Source of the DNA: Anaerorhabdus furcosa
Lineage (GTDB): Bacteria > Bacillota_I > Bacilli_A > Erysipelotrichales > Erysipelotrichaceae
NCBI RefSeq assembly: GCF_900167375.1
Contig: NZ_FUWY01000002.1
Location: 310,001-374,000 of the forward strand
Length of the DNA stretch: 64,000 bases
Direction of reading: 5' to 3'
Shown here: positions 4,358 through 15,282 of the stretch, piece by piece
Numbering within the stretch: position 1 is the first letter of the stretch
Layout: each line of letters opens with the position of its first letter
Position numbers and translations under genes: made by a program
Notes under the pieces: model-generated
What the model was told of the DNA's origin: nothing
The model's database searches: none
Seen by the model: only the letters and a program-made list of their open reading frames with translations

Positions 4358-4375
4358 AAAAAATAGCTATTTTTT
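4358..4375. terminator. Palindrome, probable bidirectional terminator
   Basis: A perfect 18-base palindrome of six A, TAGCTA and six T overlaps the stop codon of the ImmA-like gene (minus strand). The A-stem-T form fits a weak intrinsic terminator for the repressor-protease transcript and possibly also for the flippase operon coming from the left. The core is short, so efficiency is uncertain. The 4133-4357 stretch before it is extremely AT-rich and I see no gene in it. Confidence 0.4.
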
Positions 4376-4813
4376 ATTTGATAATACATTAAGCTGCTTC
4401 GAAATCAAAAATTCATATATTTTCGTTGCAATTTTCTCTGGTATTCCCAGGCTAGTAGAGAGTTCGATAATATTCATGTTTGTTAAATCAATATCTTTAG
4501 TTAAGCAAAGAAATGAAAATACATTTGCTTCATTTTCTATGCGATTTTTATATTTTGAAAGATAGAAAGAGAATCGAACTCCAGATTCATGATGTAATAG
4601 ATAATGACCTAGTTCATGAAATAACACAAAACGTTCGTATTCAGGTGTTAAATCGGATTTGATAAGGATAAAATTCTCTGAAAGTGTTGCATCAAATTTT
4701 TTGCTGTTCAATATTTCACTATAAATTATATTCAAATTATATTCCATTAATACATCATAAATATTTGAAGATTTAATGGTTTGAGCAACTTGTATAATTT
4801 CTTCGATTTTCAT
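4367..4813 (-). CDS. ImmA/IrrE-family metallopeptidase (anti-repressor protease)
   Basis: A 148-residue protein with the zinc-metalloprotease motif HELGH at residues 66-70, preceded by 'RFVLF' and followed by 'YLLHHES', the standard ImmA/IrrE (DUF955) core. Enzymes of this family cleave a partner Xre repressor and so release a prophage or integrative element from repression (ImmA-ImmR of ICEBs1 is the reference pair). It lies 11 bases downstream of the Xre gene on the same strand, the usual pairing. The start at 4813 has AGGTG five bases ahead. It is shorter than many homologues but contains the whole catalytic part. Here it is probably the switch that induces the tail operon. Confidence 0.88.
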   Translation of the reverse strand: MKIEEIIQVAQTIKSSNIYDVLMEYNLNIIYSEILNSKKFDATLSENFILIKSDLTPEYERFVLFHELGHYLLHHESGVRFSFYLSKYKNRIENEANVFSFLCLTKDIDLTNMNIIELSTSLGIPEKIATKIYEFLISKQLNVLSNKK

Positions 4814-4824
4814 AAGTTCACCTT

Positions 4825-5298
4825 TTATTTATTTTTAACTGTGTAAAGTTCATTAGCTAGTTCAATCAATTCATCACTATTCATTTGTTCAGGATCAAAA
4901 CCACCCATTGCAAAAATTTGTGTTGATGTTAAATACTGATAGGCATCCTCTCGTGTAAAAAACTGTCCAGAGGTTGATGTTACTCGTCTATACTCATGTT
5001 CAAGCATAGAGTTAACTGCTGTTTTGCCATAATCATCAAGACTTCTAAATTTGTGTATTTGTTCGATTTCAGCTGCAGTGAAAGACTCTCTTTTGAAATC
5101 AATGGCATCTTGAAACAAGAAATTAGCATCTACATTCAAGTGTTTCATTAAATCATACAGTATTTGCTCTTTTGGGTGACTTGTATCACTCTCATAATTT
5201 GTTATCGCAGAAGGAGTAACACCGATAAGTTTTGCTAGCTGAACTTGTGTTAGTCCTTTTATTTCACGTGCTTCTTTTATTCTTTTACCTATTCCCAT
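4825..5298 (-). CDS. Xre-family repressor of the tail island
   Basis: A 157-residue regulator starting 'MGIGKRIKEAREIKGLTQ'. Residues 5-58 form an HTH_3 domain with the 'TQVQLAKLIGVTPSAITNYE' helix-turn-helix. The C-terminal part has no S24/LexA serine-lysine peptidase signature, so it should not self-cleave; inactivation by the neighbouring ImmA-like protease is the likely route. I start it at the ATG 5298 because GGAG lies at 5307-5310 just ahead; the longer open frame to 5397 runs into the promoter and has no ribosome site. A TTGACA-N17-TATGTT promoter precedes it and palindromes further up are likely operators. It probably represses both itself and the divergent tail operon. Confidence 0.88.
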   Translation of the reverse strand: MGIGKRIKEAREIKGLTQVQLAKLIGVTPSAITNYESDTSHPKEQILYDLMKHLNVDANFLFQDAIDFKRESFTAAEIEQIHKFRSLDDYGKTAVNSMLEHEYRRVTSTSGQFFTREDAYQYLTSTQIFAMGGFDPEQMNSDELIELANELYTVKNK

Positions 5299-5323
5299 AA
5301 TTATTACTCCTAATATTAATCTA

Positions 5324-5352
5324 AACATATCAAAGCAAAAACATCTTGTCAA
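5324..5352 (-). promoter_or_regulatory. Sigma-A type promoter for the repressor gene
   Basis: Reading the minus strand, TTGACA (5352-5347) is followed after 17 bases by TATGTT (5329-5324). The -35 box is a perfect consensus and the -10 box matches 4 of 6. The predicted start of transcription falls about 20 bases before the repressor start codon, leaving room for its GGAG site. Confidence 0.6.
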
Positions 5353-5362
5353 CCAAAATAAT

Positions 5363-5437
5363 TCAAGAAACTTGTGATAAATCAATTGAAAAATCATATA
5401 TCATGATATATACTTGAAATATATTCAAGTTTCTTGA
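5363..5437. promoter_or_regulatory. Operator cluster between repressor and tail operon
   Basis: Four overlapping or neighbouring dyads lie in 75 bases. CAAG-N3-CTTG occurs twice, at 5364-5374 and 5426-5436, the two copies being reverse complements of one another including the TTC/GAA flank. A perfect 16-base palindrome (ATATAT CATG ATATAT type) lies at about 5397-5412. ACTTGAA-N5-TTCAAGT spans 5412-5430. Such paired dyads in a divergent intergenic region are the usual binding sites of the neighbouring Xre repressor. A candidate rightward promoter, TTGAAA (5414-5419) with GATAAA (5436-5441), would be covered by the last two dyads. The binding itself is inferred. Confidence 0.55.
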
Positions 5438-6246: not shown

Positions 6247-6393
6247 TGGTCTCAGGTCCACTTTACGGACACGCTTGCTATTTATAAATAACTAGCAATA
6301 AAAGATATCTAGATAACTTGGTCAGTAGATTAGACCTTAAATAGTCTATTGGTGGATGCACCTAAAACTATTTTTATGAGAGGAAATGGTTAT
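6247..6393 (+). promoter_or_regulatory. Leader/late-promoter candidate region before the tail genes
   Basis: This 147-base gap follows the sigma-like activator. It contains the dyad TTGCTA (6275-6280) / TAGCAA (6293-6298), whose loop holds a perfect TATTTATAAATA palindrome, and a weaker TAGAC/GTCTA dyad near 6332-6348. No good consensus sigma-A promoter is seen, as expected of an activator-dependent late promoter. A GAGAGGA ribosome site at its end serves the gene at 6394. The regulatory role is inferred from position. Confidence 0.35.
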
Positions 6394-6726
6394 ATGAAGA
6401 AGTCAGAATTAATCGCGAGAGGATTTACTACCGAGCAAATTAATTATGTTTTTGCGGAAAATGGTAAAGACATCAATGCAGAAAAACTAAAAACACAAAA
6501 AGTTGTGAAAGAGATAACTGAACTTAAGGAATTGTTCAATAGTCAATCTAAAATTGCTACTACAAACGGTGTTGATGCAAATGTGCTAGATACACAACAA
6601 ATAAAAAATAAAAGCATTTTAAATGATATAGAAGAACAAAAAGTTTGTGTAAATTTTGAAAAAGATAAGGACTTATTAAAAATTCAAATAACCTTTCCAA
6701 TCAATGATGTAAATATAGAAAAATAG
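6394..6726 (+). CDS. Small Gp20-scaffold-like remnant or tail-operon leader protein
   Basis: A 110-residue protein. Its first 35 residues, starting 'MKKSELIARGFTTEQINYVF' and followed by 'AENGKDINAEKL', resemble the N-terminus of phage minor structural/scaffold proteins of the Gp20 type ('L.E.GLTEEQI..I...NGKDI'). The rest is charged and low in complexity. Normal Gp20 proteins are about 180-200 residues and serve capsid assembly, so here it would be shortened and without a head to build. The start at 6394 has GAGAGGA nine bases ahead; the open frame upstream to 6349 lacks one. It may be a repurposed regulator or chaperone. The family match is moderate, the function unknown. Confidence 0.6.
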   Translation: MKKSELIARGFTTEQINYVFAENGKDINAEKLKTQKVVKEITELKELFNSQSKIATTNGVDANVLDTQQIKNKSILNDIEEQKVCVNFEKDKDLLKIQITFPINDVNIEK

Positions 6727-6737
6727 GAGAAAAAATT

Positions 6738-7220
6738 ATGGCTACAATTTTAAGACATCAACGCTTAGCGTTCTTAGACATCGATGGAAAATATGAATTA
6801 TTTGGAAATGGTGTAACAGACTGGACTGTTGCAGGAAATGCAAAAACTGCAGAAAAACAATATGTTCACCAACAAAATGCTGCAGGAGGTATTAACGGTT
6901 ATGCACCTACTATGGCAATTACTGCAGAAGCATTCTCGGATGATCCTGTAATGGAATATATTCTTGATATTGCACGTACTTGGGATATTGGTGCAAAAGC
7001 ACATACAAATATTGTTGTTGTGGACACTTGGGAAGGTACTGAAACAGCACGCAAGGCTGTTAAGCAACCAGTAGTTATCTCAATTGATAATCCAGGTTCA
7101 GGTCCTTCAGGTGAAGCATTAGCTGTAACAGCTACATTAACATATGATGGTGATGCTGTAATTGGATCATTCAATATGTCTACCAAAACATTCACTGTTG
7201 ATGGTGGAGCAGAAGCATAA
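6738..7220 (+). CDS. Major tail tube protein
   Basis: A 160-residue protein starting 'MATILRHQRLAFLDIDGKYE'. Alternating short beta-strands, a 'TDWTVAGNAKTAEKQYVHQQ' segment and a C-terminal 'SFNMSTKTFTVDGGAE' strand fit tail tube proteins of siphophages. Size and place directly before the tail chaperones and tape measure are diagnostic. The Listeria monocin tube protein (LmaA/antigen A) is of similar size and holds the same position. An AGGAG lies 8-9 bases ahead of the ATG. It should polymerise as stacked hexamers around the tape measure to form the flexible tube. Local GC content is higher than in the flanking genes, as is common for highly expressed structural genes. Confidence 0.82.
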   Translation: MATILRHQRLAFLDIDGKYELFGNGVTDWTVAGNAKTAEKQYVHQQNAAGGINGYAPTMAITAEAFSDDPVMEYILDIARTWDIGAKAHTNIVVVDTWEGTETARKAVKQPVVISIDNPGSGPSGEALAVTATLTYDGDAVIGSFNMSTKTFTVDGGAEA

Positions 7221-7603: not shown

Positions 7604-8185
7604 ATGTCTTTTAACTTCCTCCTAGATGAATATCCTAATGAAGTTATTGTTGAAGAAGTTGTTTACAAGGTAAATACTGATTTTAAATGTATTTTATCTA
7701 TTATACAACTTCTTGACAATGATTTATTTTGTGAGCAAGAAAAAATAATCAATTCTATACGTATATTTTATGGTAATAACATACCTAGAAATACATCATT
7801 AGCATTTAATGAGTTAATTGGCTTTATTCAATTATATCAAGAAGAAAAAACAAACAGTAAGAAGCATAACAAAGTGATAGATTACACTATTGATAGTGGG
7901 TTGATTTTATCAGCTTTTATGCAAGTTTATAAAATTAATTTAATTGAAACTAATTTGCATTGGTTTGCGTTTAGTTGCTTATTGGAGAATATTAGTGATG
8001 AGCAAATTAGATTAATACAAATCATGAATATTAGAAGTATGGAAATTGATGAAAACTACTCAGCTAAGCAAAAGCAGAGAATTAGAAAACTGAAAAAAGA
8101 GTATTCACTGGAGAAACAAGAGGATATTAGCAATGATTTTGCGAACTCCTTTTTTTTGGGTGTGAAAGGAGGTCAAAATAAATGA
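7604..8185 (+). CDS. Phage Gp15-family tail assembly chaperone
   Basis: A 193-residue protein of the bacteriophage Gp15 family (named from Listeria phage A118). The visible family pattern runs 'VEEVVYKVNTDFKCIL' near the start, 'IDYTIDSGLILSAFMQVYKI' and 'LIETNLHWFAFSCLLENI' in the middle, and 'IMNIRSMEIDENYSAKQKQR' at the end. It follows the first chaperone immediately without its own strong ribosome site, so coupling is likely. It ends in an ATGA overlap with the tape measure gene. An 8-T run near its 3' end (8150-8157) does not open a longer frame on slippage. The A118-like relationship supports the comparison with listerial monocin. Confidence 0.85.
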   Translation: MSFNFLLDEYPNEVIVEEVVYKVNTDFKCILSIIQLLDNDLFCEQEKIINSIRIFYGNNIPRNTSLAFNELIGFIQLYQEEKTNSKKHNKVIDYTIDSGLILSAFMQVYKINLIETNLHWFAFSCLLENISDEQIRLIQIMNIRSMEIDENYSAKQKQRIRKLKKEYSLEKQEDISNDFANSFFLGVKGGQNK

Positions 8186-10374
8186 CAATTCAAAAACAAA
8201 CAATTTACTATGATATCAAAGTAAATTCAAAAGATGTTGATAAGATTATAAAGAAATGTAATTCAGTATTAAAAAAATTGGTATCAACAATAGAAGATTC
8301 AATGGAAAATGTGAATAAGATAAGTAGCTCTATTGATGAAGGCTTTGCTAACATTGAGAATTCAATTAAAAATTCTTCTCAAGAACTAAATAATCTTACT
8401 GTAGCATTCATGACATTAAAAGAATTAATACCAAGTATTTCAAGCAATATTGAAAAACTTGCAAGTAATGCAAGTAATTTAAACAATGATAATGCTGTAT
8501 CCATGTTTGGGGAGTCAATATTGGGTTTGTCAGAAAAATCAAAACAATCTATTACAAGTTTTTCGATGATTTTAGATTCAATACAAAAACTTTCAGAAGA
8601 ATCAAAAACATTGGAAATAAAATTTAAGAACAATGAAGATGCAGTTAAAAGGTTAACAATTGCTTTGTCAAATACAGGTGTAAGCAAATCAAAATCAGAA
8701 TTTGATTCTTATGCTGATACTTTAGGTGATGTATGGAATGGAGTAAAAGGAGCAGTTGATGTATTTAGTACATTTAAAACAATTGCAGATTTAGCAAATG
8801 GTGCAGCTGAAGGAATAAAAGCATTAACTACCGCATCCACAGGTTGGGTTGGTCTAGTAGTTTCTATTGGTATTGGTGCTATTGCGGCTTTAACTGCTGG
8901 TTTAATGGAATATGACAAGGTTATAAATGCAGAACATTATGCAATGATTGATAAGAATAATACTATTAAGGATTCTATAGCAAGTATGGATCAAATGGCG
9001 AGTGCATCAAAAAGACAAATGGATATTGAATTAGGTGAAATTTCTGTCTTAGAAAGTTACTATAATTCACTTCGTCGAAATATTGATGAAAATGGTGTAT
9101 ACATAGGAACTAAAGAGCAACTTGCAGTAACATTAGGCCAGTTGAATGATGCGTTTCCACAACTAAATGCTCATTTGGATGAAGAAAGCCAAAAAATAGT
9201 TGATCAAAATGGAGAAGTAATTGATCTTAAGGATTCTGTGGGTGAGTTGATTAAAGCAAAAAAAGCACAAGCATATTTAGATGCATATCAAGATGATTAT
9301 GCTGAAAATATGAAAAAGAAGAATGATGCGATTAAAGAAAATATTGAATATCAAAAAGAATTAAGTGATATCAAATCAAAGCTTCAAGATATTGATTTAG
9401 AAGAGTATGGCAGATTAGGTTTAACCGTCAGCACTGATGCCGCAGCAGAATATGCGAAGCAATTTAATTTAGATCCTTCTCAAATTTCTGAGTTGGTTAC
9501 AAGACAAAGTGATCTTAATGGTGTTATGGCAACCAATAACGAACTAATTAATCAAGCAAATGCTGCAACTAGTGAGTATGGTTCAGTACTTGAAGCTGTT
9601 GCGAGTGGCGATTATGATGGAGCCTTAAGCTTAATTAATGGTTTAGGTGAAATTACTTTATATGATCCTGAAAAAGGTCAAGAACAGATTTCTGCATTAG
9701 CCAGTCAAGTTGATCAGGCAAAAGAGACAGTTGCTGCTTTAAAGACAATGGAAGAAAACAATCCTGAAGCCAATGGTGCTTATGAAGAACAACTTGCACT
9801 TGCACTTGAAAATCAAGCCATTGCTGAAGCAGAACTACAAAAAGCGAAAGATGCAATTAATGAACAAAATTTAGTAAAAGAATCAGAAGCAGGTCTTGCT
9901 GAAGGCGCTGAACACAATAGAACATTTGGTGAAGAAGCAGTTCGAGGTATGATTGAAAATGGACAAATAAGTGGTGAATCATTTAGTACGGAGGTATTAG
10001 CGATTCTGAATGCAATGGTTTTGCCAACAAAGCAAATGGTTATTGAAGCAGTCTACAGAGGATTCGATGGGCCTTACAAAGAGGATCCCAATGGGCCAGG
10101 AGCTTCGTTTGATGATTCAGCAGGTGAATATCATTCTATAAAGCCATCATGGTCAACTGGTGGTAGAAGTCTTTCTCAAATGATTTTAAGTGGTGTTCAA
10201 CGCAGACTATCTACTACACTTGAAATTGGTATTCCTCGTCCTAATTTGGTTTTAGATAGTACAGGATCTACAGAAATAACGCAGAATTTAAGTTTTAATC
10301 AACCAATACAAAAGCCAAGTGATGTCAGTCGTGCACTACAAAAAGCAGCACGTGATTTAAGGAAAGTGAAGTGA
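8182..10374 (+). CDS. Tail tape measure protein
   Basis: At 730 residues this is the longest gene of the island. The first 180 residues and residues 330-600 are rich in helical, coiled-coil-like K/E/N/A repeats. A hydrophobic segment 'GWVGLVVSIGIGAIAALTAG' lies near residues 220-240, as is usual in tape measure proteins. An AAAGGAGG site (8165-8172) and the ATGA overlap with the Gp15 gene mark the start. In siphophages the length of this protein sets tail length (about 1.5 angstrom per residue), which would give a tail of roughly 100 nm. No lytic transglycosylase or peptidase domain is evident. The C-terminal part binds the Dit hub encoded next. Confidence 0.88.
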   Translation: MTIQKQTIYYDIKVNSKDVDKIIKKCNSVLKKLVSTIEDSMENVNKISSSIDEGFANIENSIKNSSQELNNLTVAFMTLKELIPSISSNIEKLASNASNLNNDNAVSMFGESILGLSEKSKQSITSFSMILDSIQKLSEESKTLEIKFKNNEDAVKRLTIALSNTGVSKSKSEFDSYADTLGDVWNGVKGAVDVFSTFKTIADLANGAAEGIKALTTASTGWVGLVVSIGIGAIAALTAGLMEYDKVINAEHYAMIDKNNTIKDSIASMDQMASASKRQMDIELGEISVLESYYNSLRRNIDENGVYIGTKEQLAVTLGQLNDAFPQLNAHLDEESQKIVDQNGEVIDLKDSVGELIKAKKAQAYLDAYQDDYAENMKKKNDAIKENIEYQKELSDIKSKLQDIDLEEYGRLGLTVSTDAAAEYAKQFNLDPSQISELVTRQSDLNGVMATNNELINQANAATSEYGSVLEAVASGDYDGALSLINGLGEITLYDPEKGQEQISALASQVDQAKETVAALKTMEENNPEANGAYEEQLALALENQAIAEAELQKAKDAINEQNLVKESEAGLAEGAEHNRTFGEEAVRGMIENGQISGESFSTEVLAILNAMVLPTKQMVIEAVYRGFDGPYKEDPNGPGASFDDSAGEYHSIKPSWSTGGRSLSQMILSGVQRRLSTTLEIGIPRPNLVLDSTGSTEITQNLSFNQPIQKPSDVSRALQKAARDLRKVK

Positions 10375-10378
10375 TGAT

Positions 10379-11269
10379 ATGGATAAAAAATATTTATTAC
10401 TAACATTTGATAATGGTATTTCAACTCTTAAAATGGGAGTTGGTGAAACAATAAAAGTAGTTCGAGTAGAAGGATTTGAAGCACCAGATTACATATTACA
10501 TACTACATCTATCGCTACTGCTGATGGAGTTCGAATTACCGGTAAGAAAGTTGATGAACGCTCTCTTAACATTACTTTTGGAATTGATGATATCAACAAT
10601 ACAGAAGTTTATAGAAAACAAATTCAAAAGTTTTTTAATCCTAATAAAACAATAAAACTTAAAATGAATTGGTGTTATAGTCAAGCACAGATTGAATGCG
10701 AATTAGAAGAATTTAGTTGGTCGAGTATTGAATCAATGTGGTCATATTTAGAGGGATCTGTTGCATTAAAATGTCCATTTCCATTTTGGAGTGATTTGGA
10801 TAACTTTGGTAAAAACATTGCTGCTATTACGCCGATGTTTACATTTCCTTTAGGAATGATTAACTTCAATGAAAGTGGTAGTAAGAATTTGGGATATCAA
10901 GTCATGGGTTATAATACCTTATCCAAAGAAGTTCTTTTGAATAATAAGGGTGATGTACCAACTGGTGTAGAAATTCACTTCATTGCTAAACGAGGTGTTG
11001 TTAAAAATCCTAAGATTACTTTATTAAGCTCAGGAGAATTCATTGAAGTCGTTCAAGATATGGCAAAGAATGATGTCATTGTAGTTAACACAAATGTTGG
11101 TAAAAAAGGAATCACAAAGAATGGCGTTAATATTTTCAAAGAAAAGAACAAGTTATCTACATTCTTCCAACTTGAACTTGGTGATAATAAAATAGCGTAT
11201 GATGCGTTAGAAAACTATACAAATCTGGATGTACGTGTTTACTATACTCCGAAATACTTGGGGGTATAG
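10379..11269 (+). CDS. Distal tail protein (Dit)
   Basis: A 296-residue protein in the Dit position between tape measure and hub. The N-terminal domain (about 1-140) begins 'MDKKYLLLTFDNGIST' and contains 'RVEGFEAPDY' and 'KVDERSLNITFGI', typical of Sipho_tail/Dit belts, followed by 'RKQIQKFFNPNKTIKL' and a 'CPFPFWSD' turn at the junction to the C-terminal galectin-like domain. It forms the hexameric ring at the tip of the tube to which the hub and receptor-binding proteins attach. The gene starts 4 bases after the tape measure stop. It is of ordinary length for simple Gram-positive siphophage baseplates. Confidence 0.83.
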   Translation: MDKKYLLLTFDNGISTLKMGVGETIKVVRVEGFEAPDYILHTTSIATADGVRITGKKVDERSLNITFGIDDINNTEVYRKQIQKFFNPNKTIKLKMNWCYSQAQIECELEEFSWSSIESMWSYLEGSVALKCPFPFWSDLDNFGKNIAAITPMFTFPLGMINFNESGSKNLGYQVMGYNTLSKEVLLNNKGDVPTGVEIHFIAKRGVVKNPKITLLSSGEFIEVVQDMAKNDVIVVNTNVGKKGITKNGVNIFKEKNKLSTFFQLELGDNKIAYDALENYTNLDVRVYYTPKYLGV

Positions 11270-11272
11270 AAG

Positions 11273-12310
11273 ATGGAATTATTAATTCTAGACAGGAATT
11301 TTGAAGAAATCGCAACGATTGAACTTTTTAGTTCTCTTCAGTGGAATCGAAAATATTATGATTATGGTGATTTTGAATTAGAGACAGATATTAGTCATAT
11401 AAAATTATTTCAAGAAGGTGTATATCTATTTCGCAAAGATTATGAATTAGCGTTAATTGAAGAAATTACTTATGAAAGATCTGATAGTAATGAATACTCT
11501 TTGAAAGTTAGTGGAAGATTTATCACTGCAATTTTAGATGATAGGGTTGTAGTAGGTGAAAAGAAACTAACTGGAAATCATGAGGACATTGCATACCAAT
11601 TATTGAATGAAAATTTTATTCAACCTACAGATGCATTGAGAAAAGTGAATTACTTAAGCGTTGCGATTAAAAGTAAACTAGGTGAATCTACAACACTGGA
11701 ATTAAAGAATGCCGTGATTGGTAAAAAGTTAAATGAGTTCTTAGAAGAGAAGGAATTAGCACATAAAATCGAATACGACTATCTCAATAATCAACTGGTA
11801 TATTCGGTGTGGAAAGGATTAGATCGTACTGAGGAACAAACAATCAACTCGTGGGCTGTTTTTTCAGATGATTACGACAATATAGTAAATATTGATTATT
11901 CACATGATATGAGTGATTATATCAATTTTGCTTATGTAGTTGGAAAAGATAATTTAAGAGTTGAAGTAAATCAAATCAAAGAGGGTGAAAGACGGAGAGA
12001 AAAAGTTGTGTCCTCTTCTGATAGTGATAGGAATGTTTTAACTGATAAGGGGAAGCAAGAATTAGATAAAAATAAACTAGTAGAAGTTATCGATTGTAAT
12101 ATTCTAAGTAGTGAGAATTTATTGTATAGAAGAGACTATGATTTAGGAGATCTTTGTACAGTAAAAATCAGAAGTATAGATAAAATGTCTTCCTTGAGAA
12201 TTACAGAAGTAAAAGAAGTATATGAAAATGGTGAGATAAGAATTGAACCTAAATTTGGTGATGATTATATTACTATTACAAAATTTATAGAAAGAGAGGT
12301 AAAATCATGA
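11273..12310 (+). CDS. Tail hub protein, Siphovirus ReqiPepy6 Gp37-like (Tal)
   Basis: A 345-residue protein starting 'MELLILDRNFEEIATIEL' with the family hallmark 'WNRKYYDYGDFELE' and 'ALIEEITYERSDSNEYSLKVSG' region, a strong match to Gp37-like tail hub proteins. These correspond to the N-terminal gp27-like hub domains of tail-associated lysins and hold the baseplate centre. It has no C-terminal peptidase or lysin extension, so cell-wall digestion by the tip would need another protein. It lies 3 bases after dit and overlaps the next gene by ATGA. Membership is confident, details of assembly are inferred from phage homologues. Confidence 0.85.
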   Translation: MELLILDRNFEEIATIELFSSLQWNRKYYDYGDFELETDISHIKLFQEGVYLFRKDYELALIEEITYERSDSNEYSLKVSGRFITAILDDRVVVGEKKLTGNHEDIAYQLLNENFIQPTDALRKVNYLSVAIKSKLGESTTLELKNAVIGKKLNEFLEEKELAHKIEYDYLNNQLVYSVWKGLDRTEEQTINSWAVFSDDYDNIVNIDYSHDMSDYINFAYVVGKDNLRVEVNQIKEGERRREKVVSSSDSDRNVLTDKGKQELDKNKLVEVIDCNILSSENLLYRRDYDLGDLCTVKIRSIDKMSSLRITEVKEVYENGEIRIEPKFGDDYITITKFIEREVKS

Positions 12311-13260
12311 GAAGTGGTTTTTTTAATTCGGATATAACAGGTTATAACGATAGTGGTATGCCTATTTTTGATAGAGCGGAAGATGCGGAATTCTTTGCTC
12401 ATTTTTTCAAATCATTCTTCACAAATGGTGTATATCCAAATCCCAGCTCAAATTTACAAGTTTCAATACAAGAAGGAATGAATGTTAAGGTATTACCTGG
12501 GTTATGCTTGATTGAAGGGTATTTTGGTTGGGAAGATACAGAACGTGTGTTAGCAATTCAAGCAAGCGAGAGTTTAGACCGAATTGACCGTATTGTACTG
12601 CGTCTAAATTTAGCAGACAGAACGATTGATTTATATGTAAAGAAAGGGGTTGGAGCAACAAATCCTGTAGCACCAGAAATTACTCGTCCATTACCAAATC
12701 AGGGCGGTGATATATTTGAGTTAGGTATCGCAGATATCTTTGTAGCAAAAAACACGACATCAATTACACAACAGCGTATAACAGATTTGCGTTTAAATAA
12801 TGAATTTTGTGGACTTGTAGTACAGACAGTAAAAGGAATAGATACTACAACTTTATTTCAACAGTTACAAGGACAAATTAGTGAAAACATGGAATTAATT
12901 CAAAGTGCTTTGGATGAAACACTAGCGGGAGATATTATTTCAAAACTTACTAAAGACTTGAATAAGCTAGTTATTCCTACTACAGCTATATGGACACAAC
13001 TTACTTCCTCAACTGCAAATGAGGAAGAATTAGAAAATGATCCAAACTTAACTTATCCATGGTTTTCGGATGTATTGTTTAACTGTACTGAAAATGATTA
13101 TGTTGAGTTGCAACCTAATATACCAACAAGTGAATTAGGGGTAGCACCATTTAACTATTCAAAAACGAGTAAACTAAGAATTTATGCAAGTGATAATTTA
13201 ATCGGGAAAGAACTTAAGTTTATGGTTTGTCGTAAAACTAGAAAGAATGAGGTAGTGTAA
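12307..13260 (+). CDS. Baseplate/tail-fibre adaptor protein (BppU-like N-terminus)
   Basis: A 317-residue protein. The N-terminal half is a known phage baseplate module: 'MRSGFFNSDITGYNDSGMPI', then 'AEDAEFFAHFFKSFFTNGVY', 'GLCLIEGYFGWED', 'RIDRIVLRLNLADRTI' and 'ITQQRITDLRLNNEFCGLVV'. This module docks a receptor-binding part to the Dit/Tal baseplate. A helical linker at about 185-215 leads to a C-terminal beta-rich domain ending 'LKFMVCRKTRKNEVV'. GAGAGG precedes the ATG. It is coupled to the hub gene and followed 1 base later by the first of three tail-tip paralogues, so it is probably the adaptor on which those sit. Confidence 0.8.
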   Translation: MRSGFFNSDITGYNDSGMPIFDRAEDAEFFAHFFKSFFTNGVYPNPSSNLQVSIQEGMNVKVLPGLCLIEGYFGWEDTERVLAIQASESLDRIDRIVLRLNLADRTIDLYVKKGVGATNPVAPEITRPLPNQGGDIFELGIADIFVAKNTTSITQQRITDLRLNNEFCGLVVQTVKGIDTTTLFQQLQGQISENMELIQSALDETLAGDIISKLTKDLNKLVIPTTAIWTQLTSSTANEEELENDPNLTYPWFSDVLFNCTENDYVELQPNIPTSELGVAPFNYSKTSKLRIYASDNLIGKELKFMVCRKTRKNEVV

Positions 13261-13261
13261 T

Positions 13262-13663
13262 ATGTTAGGAAAAATATTAACAAAAGCAAAAGGTTTTTTT
13301 CCACCTGGTTATAAATATGTAACGGGTAAAATGAATATAGAAGTATGTAATTCAAATGCAAATATTGTACCTTTAACAGGAAGGGTGTATCAATTGAAGT
13401 TAGATGAATATAGAGGATTTACGGTTAAAGCTGGTAACCTCATTTTAGCTGATGTAGGTTTTACACAATCTGGTTGGGTGAATAATACTTCAACAATTTT
13501 GTATTTGGATTTTTTATCTGCATTTAACTTTAACTGGAATGATTTAATCAGTAAATCGAAACCAATTGATGTAATACACAAGTATAATCCAACTAATAAG
13601 AGTGTGTTTATAGTTGAAATAACTTCTTGGTTTGAAAAAAGCGGGGGGGGGGGGGGGGTATAA
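13262..13663 (+). CDS. Tail-tip (receptor-binding) protein 1, with phase-variable G tract
   Basis: A 133-residue protein starting 'MLGKILTKAKGFFPPGYKY'. It shares the pattern MLGKIL - GYK - (I/L)xPLT - final W(F/L)EK with the next two genes, so the three are paralogous tail-tip domains. The domain ends at 'ITSWFEK'; this is followed by Ser, five Gly all coded by GGG, Val and TAA. Those Gly codons are a run of 16 G (13643-13658). With 17 or 14 G the frame passes the TAA and runs open through 13660-13713 into the next gene, giving a fusion of about 280 residues; with 15 G it ends 21 codons later. No enzymatic motif is seen. The receptor-binding role comes from position behind the baseplate adaptor. 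Confidence 0.68.
   Translation: MLGKILTKAKGFFPPGYKYVTGKMNIEVCNSNANIVPLTGRVYQLKLDEYRGFTVKAGNLILADVGFTQSGWVNNTSTILYLDFLSAFNFNWNDLISKSKPIDVIHKYNPTNKSVFIVEITSWFEKSGGGGGV
13643..13658. repeat. Homopolymeric G16 tract in a tail-tip gene
   Basis: Sixteen consecutive G in DNA of roughly 30% GC, inside the last codons of the first tail-tip gene. Long G runs are classical sites of slipped-strand mispairing and phase variation. Glycine elsewhere in the island is mainly coded GGT or GGA, so GGG repeated five times is not codon preference. Length changes shift the reading into either an immediate stop (present form), a short tail, or a fusion to the next paralogue. The true length may be mixed in the population or misread in assembly. 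Confidence 0.85.
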
Positions 13664-13713
13664 ATCCTCTTTTAAAAAAATCCTCAACTTTCTTGCGAAA
13701 GGTGGTATCAACC

Positions 13714-14103
13714 ATGTTGGGTAGAATTCTTATAAATCAGAAGAGTGAGTACGCAGGATACAAAATCATGAGGGGAATTAAAGATATAGTAAGTACTTCT
13801 AATGATGGAATCATAAGCAGATTAATACCACAAGAAATTATTCCTTTGACATTTAAGTTAGAGTGGTCTGGGACAGCTAAATGGTATATACATTTCGCAA
13901 TGCAAAGTACACCAATTGGTTGGGTTAATGGATTTATTTGGTCAGGTGGTGGCAAAGAGACATGTATGACATATATGGATGTTGAATCTTTGTATGGCCT
14001 TGAATACTTAAAAAAATGCAAATATTTTGGTGGAAATGCTACAAACGCAACTGGAACTTATAAAATCACTATGGTTAAGTGGCTGGAAAAGGTTGGTGGT
14101 TAG
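13714..14103 (+). CDS. Tail-tip (receptor-binding) protein 2
   Basis: A 129-residue paralogue of the preceding gene: 'MLGRILINQKSEYAGYKIM' at the start, 'EIIPLTFKLEW' in the middle and 'MVKWLEKVGG' at the end. I start it at the ATG 14 codons-scale downstream of the frame's TTG (13693) because AAAGGTGG (13698-13705) lies 8 bases ahead of 13714 and the shared family start MLG(K/R)IL falls exactly there. The frame is open upstream back to the G16 tract, so in another phase state it becomes the C-terminal half of a fusion with protein 1. In the present state it should be made on its own. Middle residues are diverged from the paralogues, as expected of receptor-contact surfaces. Confidence 0.66.
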   Translation: MLGRILINQKSEYAGYKIMRGIKDIVSTSNDGIISRLIPQEIIPLTFKLEWSGTAKWYIHFAMQSTPIGWVNGFIWSGGGKETCMTYMDVESLYGLEYLKKCKYFGGNATNATGTYKITMVKWLEKVGG

Positions 14104-14104
14104 T

Positions 14105-14506
14105 ATGGTACTTGGAAAAGTATTAGTGAATGGAAATGATTCACCATTTCCAGCAGGATTTAAATTTGAATTTGGAGAGCATCCAACCTTGAAAGGATCT
14201 GGCACTATTAATTATGACAACAGTAAGTTAATTCCTTTAGTTATCACTCTAGAAAATGGATTAGCGAATGATTGGAGCGGAAATGCGCAAACACATTTAT
14301 ATAAAACATTGAATGGGAAAAATATTCAGTATTTATATTGCCAACCACGAACAAGTTACTCGTTGGGTTATGTTTCAATAACAAATTACACAGGACTAAC
14401 AATTGATTTAATAAGGCATTCAGGAGGATTTGATAACTTGCAAAAAAGAACAAATATTGTGACAAACTTTTCATGTATCTGTACAATGTGGTTAGAAAAG
14501 AAATAG
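14105..14506 (+). CDS. Tail-tip (receptor-binding) protein 3
   Basis: The third tandem paralogue, 133 residues: start 'MVLGKVLVNGNDSPFPAGFK', middle 'LIPLVITLENG', end 'ICTMWLEKK'. It begins one base after the stop of protein 2, with the start chosen by alignment to the family start; the open frame reaches back to 14027 without support. Aromatic and asparagine-rich beta-type segments fit a small receptor-binding head. There are no other motifs. Together with its two neighbours it suggests either a hetero-oligomeric tail tip or a cassette of alternative binding domains. The amidase gene follows after 20 bases. Confidence 0.64.
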   Translation: MVLGKVLVNGNDSPFPAGFKFEFGEHPTLKGSGTINYDNSKLIPLVITLENGLANDWSGNAQTHLYKTLNGKNIQYLYCQPRTSYSLGYVSITNYTGLTIDLIRHSGGFDNLQKRTNIVTNFSCICTMWLEKK

Positions 14507-14526: not shown

Positions 14527-15282
14527 ATGGAAATAATTCAACAACTAATCTCGCAAGATAAATATGGATTAAAATGTCCATATGTATTAAATCCAAAATA
14601 CATTACTATTCATAATACTGGGAACAATGCCTCTGCACAAAACGAAATTAATTATATGAAAAAGAATTTAAGCAATACAAGTTTTCATATAGCAGTAGAT
14701 GATAAGGTCGCTATCTTAGGAATACCTTTGAATAGAAATGCATGGCATGCAGGTGATGGAAGTAAAGGTATAGGAAATAGAGAATCAATTGGAATCGAAA
14801 TATGTTACTCAACAGATTATTCTAGTGATAGACATAGTAAAGCATTTTACAATGCAATTGAAGTAACGAAACAATTAATGATAGAATTCAACATTCCCAT
14901 TGAAAATGTAAGACAGCACTATGATTGGAGTAAGAAAAATTGTCCGCATCGAATTAGAAAGGAAGGAACTTGGAAAAAGTTCCTTTCTCTTTGCTGTGAA
15001 GCAGAATCAATTGAAACCCATGAGCAAAAACTAAAAAGAATAAGAGTAGAGAAAGAAGGGCTTTATATACGTGAAAAAGTTAATGGAGAAATTATAGGGT
15101 TTATACCTGAAAATAGTTTTCAAGATTTTGATTTAATCATGTTTGTTAAGGGTATACAATCTGATGGGTTTCAACACTGTAAAGTTCAAGGAAGTTGGAT
15201 TTATAATGGGCTTTCATATGAAAATAAAATAGGCGATATTCAATTTGACTCTCGTGTTTATAGTATTGAAGAAAGTGAGTGA
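14527..15282 (+). CDS. N-acetylmuramoyl-L-alanine amidase endolysin
   Basis: A 251-residue endolysin. Residues 1-155 are an Amidase_2 domain with the zinc and catalytic pattern 'ITIHNTGN', 'SFHIAVDDK', 'WHAGDGSKGIGN', 'IGIEICYS' and 'HYDWSKKNCPHRIR' (zinc ligands in the first and last). The C-terminal 90 residues start 'RIRVEKEGLYIREK' and look like SH3-type wall-binding repeats. It cuts between N-acetylmuramic acid and L-alanine to release particles. AAAGGAGT (14513-14520) lies 6 bases before the ATG at 14527; the upstream open frame to 14473 overlaps gene 3 and is not needed. There is no signal peptide, so export depends on the holin encoded next. Confidence 0.9.
   Translation: MEIIQQLISQDKYGLKCPYVLNPKYITIHNTGNNASAQNEINYMKKNLSNTSFHIAVDDKVAILGIPLNRNAWHAGDGSKGIGNRESIGIEICYSTDYSSDRHSKAFYNAIEVTKQLMIEFNIPIENVRQHYDWSKKNCPHRIRKEGTWKKFLSLCCEAESIETHEQKLKRIRVEKEGLYIREKVNGEIIGFIPENSFQDFDLIMFVKGIQSDGFQHCKVQGSWIYNGLSYENKIGDIQFDSRVYSIEESE

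Follow-up and report, generated by a model that had tools for sequence, protein, structure and literature searches.

A G16 tract at the end of a tail-tip gene of Anaerorhabdus furcosa as a probable slipped-strand switch of phage-tail adhesins

The first of three tandem paralogous tail-tip genes in Anaerorhabdus furcosa carries at its 3' end a run of 16 G residues (13643..13658, forward strand, by direct count), which is probably a random genetic switch deciding the adhesins borne on a phage-tail particle, since unrelated gut phages possess the same kind of run, in the same place and with differing lengths. In the reading preferred here, to which we assign a probability of about 0.6, the run would be a slipped-strand switch in the tandem array of tail-tip (adhesin) genes belonging to a siphovirus-type tail module, its length modulo 3 selecting between early stop, coupling and fusion. 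Coordinates refer to the window, i.e. the whole 64,000-nucleotide stretch that was analysed. Nowhere else in the window do nine or more G, or C, follow one another, the expected number of matches of a 9-mer being 0.03, and the G16 tract is the sole such run in the whole 2.4-Mb, 11-contig assembly.

The tail module covers approximately 11 kb (4.3–15.8 kb), with polysaccharide, glycosyltransferase and membrane-protein genes on either side. The reverse strand encodes its HTH repressor (4825..5397) and, adjoining this, an ImmA/IrrE-type peptidase (4367–4813), and a sigma-like activator gene is also present. On the forward strand lie genes for a probable major tail protein (6738..7220; phrog_3099/phrog_820), a Phage_Gp15-like protein (7604..8185; Pfam E 7e-33), a probable tape measure protein (8182..10374; phrog_1272, E 1e-4), a Dit-like distal tail protein (10379..11269; SPP1_Dit, E 8.5e-14), a Sipho_Gp37-like tail protein (11273..12310; Pfam E 1.3e-52; phrog_538, minor tail protein), a structural protein upstream of the tail-tip array (12307..13260) and an Amidase_2 lysin (14527..15282; Pfam E 2.8e-20), which is the first of the lysis genes and is followed by small membrane proteins. 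The module shows no gene for a terminase, portal or integrase. It has genes for tail, regulation and lysis but none for capsid or packaging, which is the content of an F-type tailocin, with the caveats that the protein of 12307–13260 matches PHROG 1220/9534, labelled by PHROGs as head proteins, and that 6388–6723 has a sub-threshold scaffold match. The former is read here as a tail-tip protein despite its label because the same family follows the Gp37-like protein in the G024 prophages. F-type tailocins, e.g. the Listeria monocins, are flexible-tail modules with tape measure, Dit, tail-tip and lysis genes and no head genes, situated between host genes; our module is like them in gene content and looks like a siphovirus-type tailocin. 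The adjoining part of the window (15868–35910) encodes large membrane proteins of 833, 841, 785 and 847 aa, which we take to be YfhO-like, together with a presumably DPM1-like glycosyltransferase, and is probably a surface glycosylation cluster.

The three tail-tip genes, all on the forward strand, have two motifs in common, M(V)LG(K/R)(I/V)L at the N-terminus and W(F/L)EK at the C-terminus. Gene 1 (13262..13663) encodes 133 aa in the present phase and ends ...SWFEK S GGGGG V TAA, with the early stop at 13661–13663; both the tract and this stop had been reported in the preliminary description of the DNA and are borne out by the sequence. Gene 2 (13714..14103) encodes 129 aa and would be the partner in coupling or fusion, and it does keep, as had been said, a Shine–Dalgarno-like site of its own, AAAGGTGG (13698..13705, forward strand), 8 nt before the ATG at 13714, with only weak predicted structure. 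Gene 3 (14105..14506) begins 1 nt past the gene 2 stop and is thus probably coupled to gene 2. Between the tract and gene 2 lies a spacer of 55 nt (13659..13713, forward strand) with two open frames. With 14 or 17 G the gene 1 frame enters gene 2 to give a product of 279/280 aa, joined by a linker of 18 residues plus glycines (INPLLKKSSTFLRKVVST), while with 15 or 18 G it runs through YKSSFKKILNFLAKGGINHVG to a TAG at 13722–13724 (forward strand), 21 codons further on. Re-reading of the frames reproduced each outcome previously claimed for 14, 15 and 17 G; what had been overlooked is that this TAG starts only 8 nt past the A of the gene 2 ATG. The locus combines a homopolymeric G tract in a tail-tip gene, the reading frame depending on how long the tract is, with an upstream stop that in the 15-G phase, at +8, falls within the approximately 10 nt of the downstream start used here as the mark of coupling.

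In the proposed mechanism, tract length modulo 3 would determine which stop is reached by ribosomes coming out of gene 1. With 13, 16 or 19 G they would halt immediately, some 50 nt short of gene 2, leaving gene 1 short-ended and genes 2 and 3 reliant on their own weak initiation. At 12, 15 or 18 G they would cross the spacer and stop on the gene 2 start codon, so that gene 2, along with gene 3 1 nt on, would be translationally coupled and made in quantity, and at 14, 17 or 20 G genes 1 and 2 would yield a single two-domain protein. Clonal cells could in this way release particles differing in tip composition and target range. We infer that slippage occurs at this locus, that it alters gene 2 yield and that it affects targeting. 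In the present 16-G state the tip would carry mainly the short-ended gene 1 product, with little made from genes 2 and 3 unless the AAAGGTGG of gene 2 is enough by itself.

Gene 1 has no Pfam match, and protein searches of 60 relatives, the 316 genomes of the order, phages, plasmids and IMG/VR found no homologue of it. Its AlphaFold model has a mean pLDDT of 53 and was set aside as a basis for fold comparison, and alignment-based scanning of IMG/VR found no sufficiently conserved stretch; the tail-tip gene family evolves too fast. As genes 1–3 have no homologue detectable by sequence within the order, the search was made by architecture, i.e. W(F/L)EK with a run of at least seven G no more than 12 nt behind it, across the 316 genomes. 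Matches occurred in two genomes only, A. furcosa itself and a Holdemania, and in both they are these tail-tip genes. The gene in the latter (Holdemania A; L072/L128) has a G10 tract and is a divergent relative, with an N-terminal MLTDIL, PFPGYE..G and IPL motifs and a C-terminal CTLWLEK, and it aligns to gene 3 by BLASTP at 28% identity (E 6e-4, for a single comparison). A second Holdemania prophage (Holdemania B, L143) carries a tandem array of genes beginning M(G/N)FCKNILPNG..., and in it a G12 and a G9 tract, each at the end of one gene and ahead of the next. The same array includes a natural two-domain adhesin (4778–5704 of L143) with a WLEK-TGAGGAKPVKP linker, so joined forms are compatible with an array of this type. 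Nine Gp37-bearing loci of the order showed no tract at the corresponding place, although in two of them (G024) a tract is found at the N-terminal end of a spike gene. Three spikes of about 519 aa in G024 carry the tract in their first codons (G10 in frame in L067, G10 out of frame in L068 and G11 out of frame in L145), and three of the four G024 tracts of at least nine are located in those spikes.

Our element and the two Holdemania prophages have in common tandem tail-tip genes, a tract at the 3' end, a spacer of 55–87 nt and then the next gene. Their four junctions (our own, one in Holdemania A, and HolB1 and HolB2 in Holdemania B) all offer an early TAA within a few codons in one frame, a stop near the next start in another (-2, +1, +8 and +8 at the four junctions, counted from the A of that ATG) and an open fusion frame in the third. 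Shuffled spacers satisfy all three frame conditions in 0.4–2% of cases per junction, for a nominal joint product of 1.7e-8 over the four, a figure that is too favourable, since two of the four had served to frame the rule and HolB1 and HolB2 lie in one array. At neighbouring junctions in the same arrays the genes overlap or stand a few nt apart, compared to the 55–87 nt at tract junctions, which suggests that gene 1 resembles an ordinary phage gene when it extends to the gene 2 start and that the early stop is a truncation. L163, which is homologous to the Holdemania B junction, has G10 and is in the coupled phase, whereas its Holdemania B counterpart has G12 and an early stop.

Differences in tract length between near-identical phages are observed directly elsewhere. 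L176 and L198 are 98.2% identical over 494 bp and have G11 and G12, which places them in the coupled and early-stop phases, respectively; L259 and L303 (99.5% over 9.6 kb) have G9 and G10, and L238 and L259 (97.8%) have G12 and G10. In the approximately 519-aa spikes, where the tract lies in the first codons, L067 has G10 and L152 has G13, at 98.0% identity with three gap positions. The comparison of L303 with L259 also indicates that one adhesin gene was seemingly lost in L303 through recombination between two poly-G/MxRSMMGRKK units, which would be a second route to new tip composition.

Two pattern scans of IMG/VR (G9, 42–72 nt, AGGTGG and ATG, and the same with AGGAGG) returned many tandem adhesin arrays on contigs of widely differing GC content, among the matches listed. 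In these arrays the tract lies in a gene end or a short leader ORF, and in one phase the stop falls on the start codon of the following gene. Among them are Lactobacillus-type arrays (MLDHxxFN...), seen also in the GenBank Lactobacillus phage vB_Lcr_AB1 (L234) with G7 and G8 junctions, and others whose genes begin MFxLIESN, MAI(F/Y)KK, MSHxxM or M(R/I)RSMMGRKK. Many matches to the patterns are due to chance. Array junctions were marked objectively as those where the first 14 residues of gene 2 resemble a neighbour's. Among the matches listed, one frame has its stop between -5 and +12 from the start at 16 of 20 array junctions compared to 27 of 68 other matches (P 0.002), and several of the latter (L154, L209, L210 and L303) really belong to the same arrays. 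The stop on the start is partly background, as the 27 of 68 illustrate, since ATGA-type overlaps are common in phage operons. At several loci the tract sits within a leader ORF of about 10 codons and not within a gene, and there coupling is the only sensible output.

The idea that G-tract phase variation operates here, put forward in the preliminary description, is strengthened by its recurrence at tail-tip and spike genes of unrelated prophages and by the near-identical relatives differing in length, but fusion, which had been proposed as the output, is not supported as the main one. In favour of a switch whose relevant states are separate proteins versus a two-domain fusion, with coupling incidental, the fusion frame is open not only at our locus but also in Holdemania A, HolB1, HolB2 and L163, with a joint chance of 0.002 for the first four, and the two-domain member of Holdemania B, with its WLEKTGAGGAKPVKPKEYKR linker, provides a ready-made example. 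None of the five junctions is in the fused phase now (16, 10, 12, 9 and 10 G), however, and in the other arrays with near-start stops, among the matches listed, the fusion frame is closed, which makes a single-versus-fused switch unlikely. Translational coupling of the next adhesin is the likelier primary output, because the stop on the next start is the recurrent feature and the fusion frame is closed in those other arrays, and fusion would be a lineage-specific third state. We give even odds to a broader proposal, viz. a widespread and undescribed class of phage switch in which poly-G at tandem tail-tip adhesin junctions or leader ORFs phases coupling, often with the ribosome site in a hairpin, and to which Erysipelotrichaceae-type members, our module among them, add fusion to make a three-state combinatorial switch.

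Three other explanations were weighed. RNA polymerase too can slip on long homopolymers, and slippage in transcription or translation on G16 could give a fixed mixture of products from constant DNA, a form of programmed recoding for which every frame here is open or meaningful; the genomic tract length differs between near-identical phages, as DNA slippage predicts, and we regard recoding as very unlikely. A tract acting as the spacer of a phase-variable promoter, TTGAAA-N21-TATAAA, driving transcription of genes 2 and 3 would have parallels in the many G11–G14 tracts of the order that lie between TTGACA and TATNNT, and similar hexamers do flank our tract. Yet the TTGAAA is coding sequence for the conserved FEK, the 21 nt exceed the 16–18 nt of the promoter scan, which found no site here, and the Holdemania A tract has no TATAAT-like box, so that the chances of this explanation are slimmer still. 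It is true that the exact run length is uncertain in a draft assembly and that some poly-G runs of other assemblies lie at contig ends, but a neutral hypermutable tract of no function, or a run inflated by assembly, is hardly credible for a tract inside a 482-kb contig, with coding sequence on both flanks and the same placement in independent assemblies.

Predicted local hairpins hold the ribosome site, better than in shuffled sequences, at HolB1, HolB2, L163, L202, L209 and AB1, the last with the hairpin GCCGCCACC-AGAAA-GGCGGTGGC. At our own gene 2 the Shine–Dalgarno site has a predicted unpaired probability of 0.06, which is not better than shuffles (p 0.53; z -0.45). A hairpin over the ribosome site was rejected as a universal feature, being not significant at our locus or in Holdemania A, and across all tract matches compared to 23 untracted starts the difference in pairing is not significant (P 0.16).

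Poly-G phase-variable receptor-binding proteins (RBPs) of phages are already known. Campylobacter phages have been described as controlling RBP expression through phase-variable poly-G (Sorensen et al. 2021, Cell Rep 35:109214, as cited in PMC11868660, PMC9311878 and PMC10579305). As far as these citing papers describe it, the likeness lies in a hypermutable poly-G that changes expression of a receptor-binding protein, and hence host recognition within a clone, and the difference in that the Campylobacter switching of RBPs is mediated by simple sequence repeats (SSRs), whereas our tract sits where two tandem tail-tip genes meet, and its outputs would be coupling and fusion. The present examples occur, moreover, in prophages of Gram-positive gut bacteria and in a tail module without head genes, as opposed to the Campylobacter phages as cited. 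Campylobacter surface genes have contingency loci with tracts of 7–11 G (PMC9311878), and with such slipped-strand loci of bacterial surface genes our tract would share the kind of DNA switch and the bet-hedging logic, while differing in that its target is the adhesin of a phage-tail particle and that a second run of at least nine G or C is absent from the host genome. The GeneTack study treats a co-located stop and start as a signature of coupling and tandem repeats near a frame transition as a signature of phase variation, and assigns its clusters to one or the other by the dominant signature (PMC3711429); here both come together.

The open-licence papers searched contained no report of a poly-G switch for tailocins, the tail-tip cassettes of F-type tailocins included, or for Gram-positive gut prophages, or of coupling as the switched step, in agreement with the earlier remark that no described tailocin is known to have one. 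The findings suggest that, in Gram-positive gut bacteria, temperate phages and also phage-tail particles may bet-hedge their target range via DNA slippage, with an output, i.e. coupling between or fusion of neighbouring adhesins, different from that of the Campylobacter phages. Tract length would be a readable DNA mark of the tip proteins of a particle, with a state scorable from ordinary sequencing reads, and the assembled tail-tip genes of many gut prophages may, by the same token, display one phase among several.

Poly-G runs occur in other settings too. Runs of at least 11 are present in 34 of the 316 genomes of the order, and G11–G14 tracts in genomes other than our own (L030, L034, L037, L049, L056, L057 and L058) lie between TTGACA and TATNNT-like hexamers in the manner of phase-variable promoters. 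Six IMG/VR contigs (L082, L084, L096, L097, L101 and L110) have genes resembling DNA adenine methyltransferases (NPPYGR...W(V/I)EK) with an in-frame G9–G13 just past the motif, the lengths differing between relatives, and are possibly phase-variable phage methyltransferases. At three loci of the Elusimicrobiota MAG JAISQF01 (L124, L129 and L131), G12–G16 follows a similar ...KIWLEK, with about 245–250 codons open in another frame, and the three may represent a contingency-gene family. In two gut MAGs (L123 and L125), a hydrolase-like gene, MKNYFIIHGSFGNSQE(N/H)WFPWLEKQI, is interrupted by a G10 tract, with the frame kept in one MAG and lost in the second.
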